Source: Candidatus Mcinerneyibacteriota bacterium (GTDB lineage Bacteria; AUK180; JAQVHJ01). Taken from it: a stretch of DNA of 12,739 nucleotides. Position numbers and translations under genes: made by a program. This document shows positions 2,844 through 12,739 of this stretch, piece after piece. Within the stretch, counting starts at the first letter, position 1. Every line of letters begins with the position of its first letter. A model generated the notes under the pieces. The model did no database searches, had not been told where the DNA came from, and worked only from the letters and a program-made list of their open reading frames with translations. The stretch spans positions 1-12,739 of the forward strand of contig DAOVMD010000035.1 in the NCBI GenBank assembly GCA_030630935.1, written 5' to 3'.

Positions 2844-5800
2844 ATGGACTTTGAACCCATCATACAGGAAATAATAACGCATCTACATGACATGCGTGGT
2901 ACGAAGAAAGTACCGTTAATACCATATGGATTTCAGAAAGATAAGCAGCGATATGGATTATTAATTTCAAAATTATGTGAAGAGAAGAAAATCACTACCG
3001 GCGAGTTTACCAAATACATTAAAACGATTTCCATTTTTGAAATTGAGAAGGATAATATAAACTATAAAAAGTTAAAATCCGGTAAAGAAAAGATGTTCAA
3101 GATGAACACTCAAGTTTTATACTTAGTTTCAAATTCCCAGATTGAAGAAGATATCAAGAGGAATCCTGTTGAACTGACAAAATTACTTTTAGGTACTCCC
3201 TTGGCAAACCTTGCATTTGAGGGCGGGATTGATGATAGTTATCTTGATATTATGGCAACGGAAGAAGAAGCACAAAAATCTGAGATAAAGGGAATTCTAT
3301 CAGCCGATTCGAAAGGATCAACTGAAGGTTTTGAGATTGATTCTATGTTAGATGATGTTTTATCGGAAGGTGGTGCTCTTGATGAAATTCCCGGTGAACC
3401 TGCACCCAAAGTACCTGCTGCTGATGAGTCGGGAACAGATGATAAACTTGAAGGTTCAGCGATTGATTCAAAGCTTGACGAGATTTTCTTTGAAGATGCT
3501 TCTGAGATCAAAGAAGAAAAACCTCCAACTAAGCCCGACGAACCCAAGAAAGAAGCAAAGATTGAAGGTGCATTATCTGATTTTGATTTTGATAAACCTA
3601 TTAAGGATGATATTGAAAAGACTAGTGCAGTTGAACCAGAAAAACAAAAGGAACCGGAGCTTGAACCTGAGAAATTCGAAGATTTTTCGCTTGATGATTT
3701 TGAGTTTTCCGGAATTCCAGATGAGAAACCCAAATCCGAAGAACCGGAAAAAGCCCCGGTTATTCCTGAAACAAAAGTTGAAGAGACTCTTATTTATACA
3801 CCAGACCAGGCAAAGAAACTGCGTGAAGAGATTCAGTTGGAAGAAGATAAGAAGCCGGCAGAACCTGTGATTGACATGAGTAAGGAACCTGTGATTGAAA
3901 CCAAGGTTGATGAGACCCTTGTTTATACTCCGGACCAGGCTAAGAAACTACATGAAGATATCCTTCCGGAAGAAGATAAGAAACCGGAAGAACCTGTGAT
4001 TGACTTGGGTCAGGAACCTGTGATTGAAAATAAGGTTGAAGAGACTCTAATTTATACACCTGACCAAGCAAAGAAACTACATGAAGATATCCTTCCTGAA
4101 GAAGATAAGAAACCGGAAGAGCCTGTGATTGACTTGGGACAGGAACCTGTGATTGAAAATAAGGTTGAAGAGACTCTAATTTATACACCTGACCAAGCAA
4201 AGAAACTAAGGGAAGAAGCTCTTCAAGAAGAGGATAAAAAGCCGGCGGAACCTGTGATTGACTTAGGTCAGGAACCAGTGATTGAAAATAAGGTTGAAGA
4301 GACTCTAATTTATACACCTGATCAAGCAAAGAAACTAAGGGAAGAAGCTCTTCAAGAAGAGGATAAGAAGCCGGAGGAGTCTCCTGTGATTGACTTAGTT
4401 CAGGAACCCGTAATTGATTTGAGTCCAGAACCTGTGATTGATCTGGGTCAGGAACCAGTGATTGAAGATAAGGTTGAAGAGACTCTAATTTATTCCCCTG
4501 ATCAAGCAAAGAAACTAAGGGAAGAAGTTCTTCCGGAAGAAGATAAGAAACCTGAAGAATCTTCAGAACCTGGTGATAAGTTTGAGTTATTCAGCGATGC
4601 AGACCTGGAAGAAATTAATCTTGATGAGAATTTAATAGAACCTGTGAAGAGCGATCTTAATGAAGAAATAAAAACTGAAACCCCACCTGAGCCAGTTGAG
4701 ATAAAGGATGAAGTTTTACCAATTACACCGGAAGATGATATGATGAAGTTTCAATCTTTTGATATCCCTGACGAAAAACCCGAAGAAAAGAAAGATAAGG
4801 AAGACACCTTTGTTTTAGAAGATGATGGTGGACCACAGGTATTCCAGGGAGTAGATGAGAAGAAGATTGCTTCTGACGAAACCATTGCTGTTACAGATCC
4901 TTCATCTATTTTGGATTCAGATGTTCTTCCTCAATTTGATCTCGAAACATCTGATTCAACGAGTGAAGAGACTTCCAAACCACCTGAGCCCATCATTACA
5001 GAATCCTTAACTGATGCAATATCCGGTCCCTCTTTAGAGCCGGATAAAAAAACGGAATCCGGTCCAAAAGAAGATATTGGCTTGGTTTCAAATGAAAATA
5101 TTATGGATGAATTAAATAAAGATAAACCTTCTTCATCAAGTTTTCAAGGACCAGCTGGAGTTAAGAAGAAAGATAAAAAACCAATCTCCTCTGAGAAGAA
5201 GAAAGATAAAAAATCAATGTTTAAAACGAAAAAAGATAAAAAGAAACCACTATCTAAGAAGATTAGTAAAAAACCAAAAACTAAAAAGAAAGTCGCTCTT
5301 GAACGAAAATATAAACCCAAAAAGAAGAAAAAATCAAAACTTGTACCGATTATATTGGTTTCATTATTAATAGTTATTTTGGTTCTGTTTTTTGTTAGAC
5401 CAAATATTAGTTTTTTGAATGAATCTTTATATCCATTATTCAATAAAATTTACGATCCATCACCATCTAAACCAGAGCCAGAACCAAAACCTGAACCAGA
5501 ACCGAAACCTGAGCCAGAGCCTAAGCCCGAACCAGAACCGAAACCTGAGCCAGAGCCAAAGCCCGAACCAGAACCGAAACCTGAGCCAGAGCCAAAACCT
5601 GAACCAGAGCCGAAGCCCGAGCCAGAACCTAAGCCAGAGCCGGAGCCGAAACCTGAACCTGAACCTGAACCTGAGCCTAAGCCTGAGCCGGAACCGGAAC
5701 CAGAACCGAAACCTGAAGTAACGGGAGATAAAATTTTTACGATTCAAATCGGAACTTATAAGAATGTAAAATATGCAAATGAAGAAGTCGCGGATTTGAA

Positions 5801-5969
5801 GAGGGACGGATTTGATGCTCATATAATAGAAGCAGATCTTGAGAATCTTGGCCATGTTTATAGAGTACGATTAGATGAGAGAATGACAAAGGAAGATGCA
5901 GCTGCGAAATTAAAAGAGATGCAAGCTAAAGGTTGGAAAGATATTTATATTTCTAAAATTAAACAATAA
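2844..5969 (+). CDS. Giant repeat-rich single-pass membrane protein with C-terminal SPOR domain
   Basis: This is a 1041-residue protein in blocks. Residues 1-140 look like a folded domain of unknown family. Residues 145-770 are acidic, Pro-rich and probably disordered, with six copies of a 43-residue repeat (311-573) and a motif IPDEKP at both 291 and 641. Residues 774-832 hold 32 Lys in 59 positions. A transmembrane helix runs from about 833 to 851 ([18 protein letters not shown]), then a PEP/KPEP rod (876-958) and a SPOR domain (963-1038: [42 protein letters not shown]). Positive charge before the helix predicts N-inside, C-outside, which puts SPOR in the periplasm. SPOR domains bind denuded peptidoglycan glycan strands, often at division sites. 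The start has a weak AAAGG 6 nt upstream. The large N-terminal part matches no SPOR protein I know; a scaffold linking cytoplasm to cell wall is inference. Confidence 0.85.
3774..4562 (+). repeat. Six tandem 129-bp (43-residue) repeats inside the SPOR protein gene
   Basis: Repeat starts fall at 3774, 3903, 4032, 4161, 4290 and 4470. The first four spacings are exactly 129 bp. Unit 5 is 180 bp because a short VIDL.QEP submotif is itself multiplied, and unit 6 is cut short (93 bp). The most conserved protein core is [13 protein letters not shown], followed by an acidic EEDKKPEE stretch and [13 protein letters not shown]. Units 3, 4 and 5 are almost identical at the DNA level, including codon choice, which indicates recent duplication or gene conversion. 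Units 1 and 2 are more diverged. Confidence 0.95.
5340..5396 (+). other. Transmembrane segment of the SPOR protein, with polybasic cytoplasmic flank
   Basis: Residues 833-851 are an uninterrupted hydrophobic run of 19. It is preceded by 59 residues with 32 lysines (coding bases 5163-5339) and followed by a single Arg, then polar sequence. By the positive-inside rule this sets the N-terminal 830 residues in the cytoplasm. Confidence 0.85.
5469..5717 (+). repeat. Pro-Glu/Lys-Pro periplasmic rod repeat (KPEPEP)
   Basis: This codes for residues 876-958, an alternating X-Pro series with Glu and Lys in units of KPEPEP, shifting to longer EP runs near the end. Such X-Pro tracts form stiff extended rods, as in the EP/KP spacer of TonB. 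The synonymous codons vary (cca/cct/ccg/ccc and gag/gaa), so the tract is not a pure simple-sequence repeat and has been kept by protein-level selection. Confidence 0.93.
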
Positions 5970-5990: not shown

Positions 5991-6788
5991 ATGAAAAAGG
6001 ATGAACTGATAATTTTTCAGAAAGACCTTGTTATTATAAGCATTGAAGGAGTAATGACTAATAAGAACATAGAGGATCTAGAGATTAAAATTGATAAAGA
6101 TATTTTATCTGGAAAGAAAGGGATTATTATTGATTGCAGTAAATTAACTTTTGCTTCTCCGACGATTTTTAAGAGTTTAGTAGTCATAAATAATAAGGTA
6201 AAGAAGAACCATGGGATTTTAATTTTTGCACGCTTTGACGAAGAATTATTCAAGAACATCAAGACCTATGATTATTCCAATTCATTTTCGATGGCGAAGA
6301 CTCTTGACAAAGCGATTGATCAAATTATGGGTAGTCGGAAAATAAAGGATGAAGAAGAAAGGATTAAATATCTAAATATGGAGATTGCAGTTTCGGGGAA
6401 CATGGAGAATTTAGCAAAGATAAGAAAATTTATTACAGACGTAACAGTAAATTTGAGGTTATCAGAAGATGAAACCAATCTTTTTGTTTTAGCCGTTGAT
6501 GAAGCAGCTGCAAATATCATGAAGTATGCATATAAAGGTAGTAATGTGAAGCATATGGTAATTCAAGCGAAATATGAATATCCCAAATTTACGATATTAA
6601 TTGCAGATAATGGAGAAGAGTTTGATCCTACCGAAAAGAATCTTCCGGTTGGTCTTGATGAATATATTCGTGGCGGTCATAGTGGAGGTTTAGGGATTTT
6701 TATAATTGAACAGATTGTAGATAAGGTAAATCACTATTATATTCCCAGTCTTGGAAACCGATTAATTATGGAGAAGATAATTCAATAA
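5991..6788 (+). CDS. STAS/HATPase fusion: anti-sigma antagonist domain joined to an RsbW/SpoIIAB-like kinase domain
   Basis: The protein has 265 residues. Residues 1-112 have the layout of a STAS antagonist domain: LVIISIEGVM, then GIIIDCSKLTF, then KNHGILIFARF and KTLDKAIDQI. Residues 130-265 form a GHKL ATPase of the RsbW/SpoIIAB class, with the N box as VDEAAANIMKYAY (E171, N175), the G1 box as DNGEEFDP (206-212) and the G2 box as GGLGIFII (232-239). In the family the kinase binds a sigma factor, or phosphorylates its antagonist, in a partner switch; usually the two are separate proteins. Here the STAS position that normally reads DSSG is ASPT (55-58), so the canonical phosphoserine may be absent. 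GAGGGT at 5978-5983 supports the start. No sigma factor or PP2C phosphatase gene lies next to it; the next gene is an NtrC-type regulator. Confidence 0.85.
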   Translation: MKKDELIIFQKDLVIISIEGVMTNKNIEDLEIKIDKDILSGKKGIIIDCSKLTFASPTIFKSLVVINNKVKKNHGILIFARFDEELFKNIKTYDYSNSFSMAKTLDKAIDQIMGSRKIKDEEERIKYLNMEIAVSGNMENLAKIRKFITDVTVNLRLSEDETNLFVLAVDEAAANIMKYAYKGSNVKHMVIQAKYEYPKFTILIADNGEEFDPTEKNLPVGLDEYIRGGHSGGLGIFIIEQIVDKVNHYYIPSLGNRLIMEKIIQ

Positions 6789-6803: not shown

Positions 6804-8156
6804 ATGAAGATACTGATTATAGATGATGAGAAGAGCATTCGAGATTCTTACCGAATGATACTTGAATATGAAGGTTATGAGATAGATGAAGCCGCTTCCG
6901 GAGTTAGGGCATTAAAGAAAATTAAAACAGGTTTATATAAAATTATCCTTCTTGATTTAATGCTTCCCGATATCGGGGGGATTGAAATCATGGAGCGGAT
7001 TAAGAAAGAAGGGCTTGATGTAAATATAATTGTTATTACAGGCCATGGTAATGTCAAGGATGCTGTTGCTGCAATTAAGCTTGGGGCATTTAACTTCTTG
7101 GAAAAACCGATTGAGAAAAATAAACTCATATTAATTCTCCGAAATTTAGTAGATATAATTGAGCTGCGAGTTGAAAATAAAAACTTAAAATCTACGTTAT
7201 ATGATGATATTCAAATTATTGGTGAATCATCTAAAATTATTGAGATACTTGAAGTGATTAAAAAAATCGCTCCAAGTGATTCCAGTATTTTTATTCAAGG
7301 TGCGAATGGCACAGGAAAGGATTTAATTGCCAGGTCTATTCATTTCAATTCCAAGCGGAATAATAAACCTTTTGTCGAAGTTAATTGTGCTGCAATTCCT
7401 GATGAATTAATTGAATCGGAATTATTTGGTTATGAGCAAGGAGCATTTACCAATGCTTTAGCAAGGAAGAAGGGTAAGATTGAACTTGCTAATGGAGGAA
7501 CTTTATTTCTTGATGAGATAGGAGATATGTCTTTATTGACTCAAGCTAAAGTTTTGAGAGTTCTTCAATTCGGTGAATTTGAAAGAGTCGGTGGTGTGGA
7601 GAAAATTCGAGTTGATATTAGAATAGTTGCAGCCACGAATAAGGATATAAGGAAAGCGATCAAGAATAAAAAATTTAGGGAAGACCTCTATTTCAGGTTG
7701 AATGTTATCCCGATTTTTGTTCCTACTTTAAAAGAAAGAAAAACGGATATCCCCATTTTAGTGGAACATTTCTCCGAAGGATTCTTTAAAAAGAATGCAA
7801 TTAAAAAGAAGAGATTTTCAAAAGAAGTTATAGAAAAAATGCTAACTTATAGTTGGCCTGGTAATATCAGAGAATTACGGAATATTGTAGAACGTCTGAT
7901 TATAATGTCTGATTCTAAATTAATCTCAATGAATGATTTTAAAAAATACAGTATGTTATATGACTCAGAAAATTCTGAGATTATAGATAAGGATCTTACC
8001 TTGAAGGAATATTCCTTATTATGTGAAAAACAATTCATACTTCAGAAGCTTGAAGAAGCTAATTGGAATATTTCCCGTGCTTCAAAGCTTTTAGGAGTTC
8101 AAAGACCAAACCTGTACAAGAAACTTGAGCAACTTGATATAAGGATAAAAAAATAA
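6804..8156 (+). CDS. NtrC-family sigma54-dependent response regulator (REC-AAA+-Fis HTH)
   Basis: The protein has 450 residues and the full three-domain layout. The receiver (1-120) has D7/D8, phosphoacceptor D51 in LLDLMLPD, T79 and K101. The AAA+ domain (about 138-370) has Walker A GANGTGK (166-172), Walker B TLFLDE (233-238), ATNKD (277-281) and the arginine-rich REDLYFRLN region (292-300). A Fis-type helix-turn-helix lies at about 405-446 (NISRASKLLGVQRPNLYKKL). Such proteins remodel sigma54-RNA polymerase at promoters when phosphorylated. The loop that contacts sigma54 reads GAFTNA (213-218) instead of the usual GAFTGA, a conservative change seen in some members. No cognate histidine kinase is adjacent, so the fused STAS/HATPase upstream (15-bp gap) may be its input, or an unlinked kinase may serve it. 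The stop overlaps the next ATG by one base. Confidence 0.95.
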   Translation: MKILIIDDEKSIRDSYRMILEYEGYEIDEAASGVRALKKIKTGLYKIILLDLMLPDIGGIEIMERIKKEGLDVNIIVITGHGNVKDAVAAIKLGAFNFLEKPIEKNKLILILRNLVDIIELRVENKNLKSTLYDDIQIIGESSKIIEILEVIKKIAPSDSSIFIQGANGTGKDLIARSIHFNSKRNNKPFVEVNCAAIPDELIESELFGYEQGAFTNALARKKGKIELANGGTLFLDEIGDMSLLTQAKVLRVLQFGEFERVGGVEKIRVDIRIVAATNKDIRKAIKNKKFREDLYFRLNVIPIFVPTLKERKTDIPILVEHFSEGFFKKNAIKKKRFSKEVIEKMLTYSWPGNIRELRNIVERLIIMSDSKLISMNDFKKYSMLYDSENSEIIDKDLTLKEYSLLCEKQFILQKLEEANWNISRASKLLGVQRPNLYKKLEQLDIRIKK

Positions 8157-12430: not shown

Positions 12431-12455
12431 AGTAGGGGCACGGCATGCCGTGCCC
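12431..12455 (+). repeat. Solo REP-like element: GTAG head plus perfect 20-nt palindrome
   Basis: GTAG (12432-12435) directly abuts GGGCACGGCATGCCGTGCCC (12436-12455), a perfect inverted repeat that can fold into an 8-bp stem with a CATG loop. It sits 31 bp after the last stop codon, a usual place for REP elements, and could end transcription or protect the mRNA 3' end. Confidence 0.75.
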
Positions 12456-12518
12456 GTTCTTTACCCTATAATTGAGATAAATTATCTTATAAAATCGTTT
12501 ACGATCTTTTGAAAAAAT

Positions 12519-12544
12519 AGTAGGGGCGACCGGCCGGGCGCCCT
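12519..12544 (+). repeat. REP-like element, left arm of an inverted pair
   Basis: GTAG (12520-12523) is followed by a 20-nt near-palindrome (12524-12543, GGGCGACCGGCCGGGCGCCC) with one mismatched pair (A with G). The 26-nt sequence is repeated exactly, inverted, at 12686-12711. Confidence 0.8.
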
Positions 12545-12685
12545 GATCAAGTGGATTTAATCCTCCCAAATGAATACAATAAAAATAATAAATTTTAAAT
12601 ATAAATTCGAATATAAAAAATGTTTTTAAAACAATATCCGGGGTAAAATTTTTAAGTCTTTATGGGATACTTATTTCAAATGATA

Positions 12686-12711
12686 AGGGCGCCCGGCCGG
12701 TCGCCCCTACT
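12686..12711 (-). repeat. REP-like element, right arm of an inverted pair
   Basis: This is the exact reverse complement of 12519-12544 over 26 nt. It carries the same single mismatch in its palindrome, and its GTAG (12707-12710 on the minus strand) is on the outer side. The two heads therefore face outwards, as in REPIN doublets. The enclosed 141 bp are AT-rich and hold a 13-nt inverted repeat at 12621-12633. Confidence 0.8.
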
Positions 12712-12739
12712 GGACATTTCAAATATCTTCATTGTTTTC

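Follow-up and report, generated by a model that had tools for sequence, protein, structure and literature searches.

A SPOR-domain protein with a long acidic cytoplasmic region and recurring T-motifs, a candidate envelope-spanning adaptor in one bacterial class

Layout and topology of the gene

The window, the whole stretch of DNA analysed here, is 12,739 nt long. A reading frame of 1041 aa occupies exactly positions 2844-5969 on its forward strand, on which the genes and gene parts located below also lie. The encoded protein consists of an N-terminal folded domain, an acidic region with copies of a short motif around a threonine (T-motif), a lysine-rich block, one transmembrane helix, a KPEP rod and a SPOR domain. 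The SPOR domain (PF05036; aa 963-1030, 5730-5933) scores E 2e-9 and 38 bits against a curated cut-off of 21 in a Pfam scan of the protein, and E 1.9e-10 and 42.7 bits in a genome-wide search. The original prediction, made from the sequence alone, had SPOR standing where TonB has its C-terminal domain, and this is borne out. TonB membership was rejected, as the C-terminal Pfam match is SPOR and TonB_C has no match. The rod (KPEPEP, period 18 bp and multiples in the tandem-repeat search; 5469-5717) had also been called TonB-like; it does share the X-Pro composition, and the likeness goes no further than composition. Pfam matches of the whole protein to 'BssS' and 'Trypan_PARP' were discarded as artefacts of repeat composition.

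On which side of the membrane does the long N-terminal part lie? There is one strong hydrophobic segment only (aa 833-851, mean Kyte-Doolittle 3.42), giving a single predicted transmembrane helix at about aa 833-852 (5340-5399) with the hydropathy maximum at aa 833. It follows a lysine-rich juxtamembrane block (about aa 773-832, 5160-5339), and the 70 residues preceding the helix contain 33 K/R against 5 D/E. The N-terminus, inspected by eye, is without a hydrophobic signal. Since a K/R-rich block precedes the helix and no N-terminal signal is found, the positive-inside rule predicts an N-in topology, in agreement with the earlier proposal of about 830 cytoplasmic residues.

Most of this cytoplasmic part is a long acidic low-complexity region, delimited by composition and net charge at about aa 130-772 (3231-5159); the stretch aa 131-803 has a net charge of -105. 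Two short conserved motifs stand near its beginning. The first, of the IDSxLDxVx type (aa 164-175, 3333-3368), has D166, L169, D170 and V172 invariant in the orthologue alignment, and the second (aa 206-215, 3459-3488) has I207, D208 and K210 invariant. Further on, TRF finds a 129-bp (43-aa) tandem array of 4.9 copies at 3777-4417, whose unit contains (E/D)ETL(I/V)YTPDQAKKL. Both this array and the KPEP array are true tandem repeats. A T-motif copy, EETLIY, lies at 3780-3797, further copies at 3909-3926, 4038-4055, 4167-4184, 4296-4313 and 4476-4493; aa 678-683 form the variant DETIAV. Scanning the window for Rfam families and tRNAs found nothing. REP-like palindromic inverted repeats of the GTAGGGGCGACCGGCCGG type lie towards the window end, at 12431-12460 and at 12492-12549 with 12681-12738.

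The N-terminal domain and the gene neighbourhood

The N-terminal domain (aa 1-128, 2844-3227) is predicted to be folded, as originally proposed: an AlphaFold2 model built from seven sequences has pLDDT 87 and pTM 0.79 across 140 residues. The model runs helix, short strands, two helices, long beta-hairpin and helical tail. This order fits a winged helix, and the VIA-align rows are mostly of winged-helix proteins (Z-alpha, CtsR and MarR types) at modest Z of 5-5.8, so that the domain is predicted to be winged-helix-like, with a core at aa 1-96. The search by profile and structure prediction suggested along with the original prediction yielded a winged-helix-like model with neither a sequence match nor a significant Foldseek match. 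Searching the seven N-domains against Pfam, with E up to 10 allowed, gave chance-level matches only, as did a comparison with the sequences of solved structures. Identity with HU-CCDC81 was rejected at the sequence level, as in none of the seven genomes does its model PF18174 match the SPOR gene, even at E up to 10; the model passes its cut-off in one control genome. It is likewise missing from the Pfam results for the seven N-domains.

The conserved gene order is aspartate kinase, a 561-aa protein, the SPOR protein, a STAS/RsbW-like protein, a sigma-54 response regulator, a methyltransferase, a nucleotidyl transferase and thymidine phosphorylase, where the aspartate kinase and the thymidine phosphorylase were named by reading their translations. 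The gene for the 561-aa protein (1149-2834) adjoins the SPOR gene on every contig that includes this position. This upstream neighbour has no signal peptide and is predicted to comprise beta sandwiches, a coiled coil and a further beta sandwich. Foldseek with a low-pTM model returns beta-sandwich matches (transglutaminases, RbmA, WxLIP) at low TM scores, and no function is claimed from them. Downstream come the conserved gene with STAS and HATPase_c_2 domains (RsbW-like; 5991-6788) and the conserved sigma-54-dependent response regulator (6804-8156).

Could the protein be a regulator of transcription? In a model taken from membrane-bound one-component regulators, the winged helix would bind DNA and SPOR would report the state of the wall, with DNA or transcription tethered to the septum. 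Such a role would suit the predicted fold and the RsbW-like and sigma-54 neighbours. However, the Z scores of the domain stay under 6 with no sequence match, up to 700 disordered residues separate it from the membrane, and winged helices bind proteins too; we regard this transmembrane regulator as unlikely. Another way to read the neighbourhood is that the protein serves as the sensor arm of the STAS/HATPase and sigma-54 system, its cytoplasmic part recruiting or releasing the RsbW-like protein so that wall damage changes transcription. The genes are indeed adjacent in every orthologue with a long enough contig, and the domains of the neighbours accord with the idea. Yet adjacency alone says little, because metabolic genes (aspartate kinase, thymidine phosphorylase) share the conserved order, and the sequences give no sign of an interaction. 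A sensor arm therefore appears quite improbable.

Conservation of the parts and of the T-motif

A search with the N-domain found one orthologue in each of the 6 other genomes of the class, while none of the 379 genomes searched outside the class has a match. Orthologues of the SPOR gene are thus present in all seven class genomes examined (G000, that of the window, to G006), in the same gene order as far as the contigs reach; one relative lies on contig JAQVHJ010000117.1 of MAG STE_202. The order of blocks first described for the window protein recurs in the six complete orthologues, each with N-domain, acidic linker, K-rich block, one transmembrane helix, Pro- and charge-rich linker and a SPOR-aligned C-terminal stretch. 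The complete copies measure 1041, 880, 574, 574, 608 and 463 aa, and the seventh ends at a contig end; these are mostly draft MAGs, in which assembly may collapse repeat numbers. The protein had been called a giant, which is true of the 1041-aa copy. Since size varies from 463 to 1041 aa with every part present even in the 463-aa orthologue, the large size is a lineage-specific expansion, and the view that size itself is important was rejected. What makes the 1041-aa copy longer is its acidic region, including the tandem repeat, and its KPEP rod.

G002 and G003 differ with dN 0.021 and dS 0.114, an overall dN/dS of about 0.19. The ratio is lowest in the two folded domains, with 2 nonsynonymous and 10 synonymous changes in the N-domain and 1 and 6 in SPOR, and in the periplasmic linker, with 0 and 4. 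The K-rich block has 10 nonsynonymous and 2 synonymous changes, small numbers which suggest a constraint on composition only. The copies of the 129-bp repeat differ mostly at silent sites and less at coding sites, as under purifying selection. The part order kept in six complete orthologues, dN below dS and the silent repeat differences together show that the reading frame is not an accident.

The acidic region ranges from about 160 to 670 residues across the orthologues and is mostly unalignable. Two features persist in it: motifs of the I/V-D-S-K-L-D-x-[VI]-F type that follow the N-domain, and the T-motif, [D/E]-x-T-[I/L/V]-hydrophobic-[Y/F/D/V/T], in all seven orthologues. The latter had escaped the original prediction, as had its likeness to the tails of FHA (forkhead-associated) proteins. 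The window protein has EETLIY or DETLVY six times together with DETIAV; G001 has EQTIAF twice, EETIFY and EETLMY; G004 has DETIIDPK, G005 EETIIDTK, and G006 EETIIDSK and two copies of DETIMY. G002 and G003 each have a single copy, ATIIDSK, with ATIID instead of ETIID. Note that a 48-bp interspersed DNA repeat of G005, encoding EEEDRGMPSTNLVRGE, is found within acidic reading frames, in three places with identical or almost identical sequence (the end of L019, which is the end of contig G005:C36, L142 and L093), and the contig of the SPOR orthologue ends in it.

Is the T-motif more than a product of acidic composition? Matches exceed the shuffle expectation (7 against 0.05 in G000, 4 against 0.04 in G001, 3 against 0.02 in G006), with the motif defined after inspection and its tandem copies not independent. 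Genome-wide scans with two DNA-encoded motif patterns gave 11 and 68 matches against 8 and 61 in reversed controls, several of them in lipoproteins or globular proteins. Because these scans barely exceed their controls, motif frequency was dropped as evidence, and placement and conservation were kept; taken alone, the T-motif is weak evidence. This bears on a simpler explanation, that of a structural protein of the divisome akin to DamX and FtsN. In that case SPOR would be the septal anchor, the N-domain would bind a single divisome partner, and the acidic and basic stretches would provide no more than spacer and charge; the T-motifs would have arisen as a side effect of acidic composition and of duplication of the repeat. 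A bitopic layout with a low-complexity linker is the common form of SPOR protein (PMC6895207), and both the variable, mostly unaligned acidic region and the absence of genome-wide enrichment of the motif patterns would be expected of such a protein. What speaks against it is that the T-motif is kept in seven of seven copies amid an unalignable region and is close to FHA tails. A structural role of this kind is possible, if less likely than not.

FHA proteins, kinases and comparison with known systems

Strings like the T-motif occur in the N-terminal tails of small FHA proteins of the class genomes (NETVVDSK, DETVFDT, DETFVEG, DETYVDG and DKTIVDG) and also in tandem-FHA proteins, whose linker contains DETETSII and EETETKIVYEES; another group of small FHA proteins has the looser form EQTNI or EETNI. 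ETVVDSK of a GarA-like FHA tail and ETIIDSK of a SPOR orthologue, from the same genomes, closely resemble each other. The likeness is a resemblance between short strings and not a proof. All seven genomes encode FHA domains (5-8 matches per genome) and Hanks-type Ser/Thr kinases (5-12 matches), and the conserved neighbourhood of the SPOR gene has no such kinase or FHA gene. A TPR-hyperacidic protein with EET[VI]IY[ST]-type strings is also present in five genomes, G002-G006. Its loci are L138 (G004:C30), L139, L140, L141 and L142, and DIFG-type repeats fill the hyperacidic region; the L138 protein, the sole copy tested with Pfam, ends in a roadblock/LC7 domain. A probable G000 homologue, L150, ends at a contig end.

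What may the protein do? SPOR domains bind denuded septal glycans produced by amidases (PMC6895207), and amidase genes are found in six of the seven class genomes and FtsZ in all seven. In actinobacterial GarA, the ETTS motif next to the FHA domain is phosphorylated (PMC12321487), and mycobacterial kinase and FHA proteins act on FtsZ and peptidoglycan synthesis (PMC3989709). From SPOR binding, the amidase and FtsZ genes and the mycobacterial precedent, a septal anchor with a phospho-regulated tail is proposed. The SPOR domain would hold the protein at amidase-denuded, mostly septal peptidoglycan, with the KPEP rod spanning the periplasm and the helix and lysine block fixing the protein in the inner membrane. 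The cytoplasmic part would display the winged-helix-like domain and a long acidic tail with one to several T-motifs. Hanks-type kinases might then phosphorylate these motifs and FHA proteins bind them, so that kinase signalling is brought to the site of wall splitting. The docking array is suggested by the T-motifs in all seven copies, the similar strings in FHA tails and linkers and in the TPR-hyperacidic protein, and the FHA domains and kinases of every genome. Against it stand the weak genome-wide scans, the single ATIID copies of G002 and G003, the occurrence of similar strings in a secreted SPOR protein of the window's genome, and a conserved neighbourhood free of FHA and Ser/Thr-kinase genes.

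We infer the septal location, the phosphorylation, the FHA docking and the role in division from these sequence features. The anchoring half by itself is probable. The whole chain, an envelope-spanning adaptor anchored at the septal wall whose tail is a kinase-regulated FHA docking array, is put forward tentatively, with somewhat less than even confidence. The fuller form is rather doubtful: a kinase-FHA scaffold on septal peptidoglycan, with an expandable phospho-threonine array that resembles the GarA-like tails and the TPR-roadblock protein, which would build a network at the division site that depends on phosphorylation. The original idea that a cytoplasmic partner is tied to denuded peptidoglycan is supported, still as an inferred one. 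If the adaptor reading is true, cytoplasmic Ser/Thr-kinase and FHA signalling would be linked directly and physically to the state of the cell wall through docking sites whose number can be tuned. A class-specific conserved gene would then receive a function.

How general is this plan? A search of 145 genomes detected SPOR domains in 118, and such domains are known to occur with a variety of modules (PMC6895207). The genome of the window has other SPOR proteins, identified by reading: a secreted one with an N-terminal SPOR domain and the T-motif-like strings SDTVIYKP and SETIISDN (L020:372-1484), an OmpA-like fusion (L023:2504-4408), an RlpA-like lipoprotein (L021:425-1060) and a TPR-like protein (L022:1698-2612). 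Outside the class, twenty of the longer SPOR frames were read, a sample of the best-scoring matches listed in which some frames start upstream of the true start. None in this sample has more than 500 residues before the helix. Among them are proteins of other phyla with a cytoplasmic domain, a transmembrane helix and SPOR: two with an AAA ATPase, one ParA-like and one with a receiver (L067, L072, L070 and L075). The general plan is thus already known, and the claim that no described protein has this order was too strong for it; the detailed combination of this N-domain with an acidic T-motif array was not found in the 379 genomes outside the class. What is new is the pairing of a class-specific, winged-helix-like domain with a T-motif array that can expand. 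The AAA, ParA-like and receiver proteins share the folded cytoplasmic domain, helix, linker and SPOR, but they have other N-domains and shorter cytoplasmic parts (helix at aa 222-340), and no T-motif array was seen in them.

The bitopic proteins DamX, DedD and FtsN of E. coli likewise have a single helix, a low-complexity periplasmic linker and a C-terminal SPOR domain. In the cytoplasm FtsN and DedD have short parts and DamX about 100 aa, in contrast to about 830 aa here with a class-specific domain and T-motif repeats. Orthology with the three was rejected, as the NCBIfam DedD model reaches 35.5 bits against a cut-off of 150 and covers linker and SPOR only (aa 912-1026). The HU-CCDC81-SPOR proteins of Bacteroidetes also place a small cytoplasmic domain before the helix and SPOR, but PF18174 does not match the orthologues and the predicted fold here is winged-helix-like. 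Literature searches found nothing joining CCDC81 with SPOR or SPOR with an HU domain, and nothing relevant by title on CCDC81 alone or on SPOR fused to cytoplasmic or receiver domains; a search on SPOR with forkhead-associated returned actinobacterial reviews only. RodZ has a cytoplasmic helix-turn-helix-type domain (cHTH) that binds MreB, a basic juxtamembrane stretch, a transmembrane helix and a periplasmic domain, an order much like the present one, but it lacks the SPOR domain. The repeats of the acidic tail resemble the short acidic T-motif next to the FHA domain in proteins of the GarA/OdhI type. GarA carries its motif within the FHA protein itself, whereas here the motif is placed on a separate membrane protein and is repeated.
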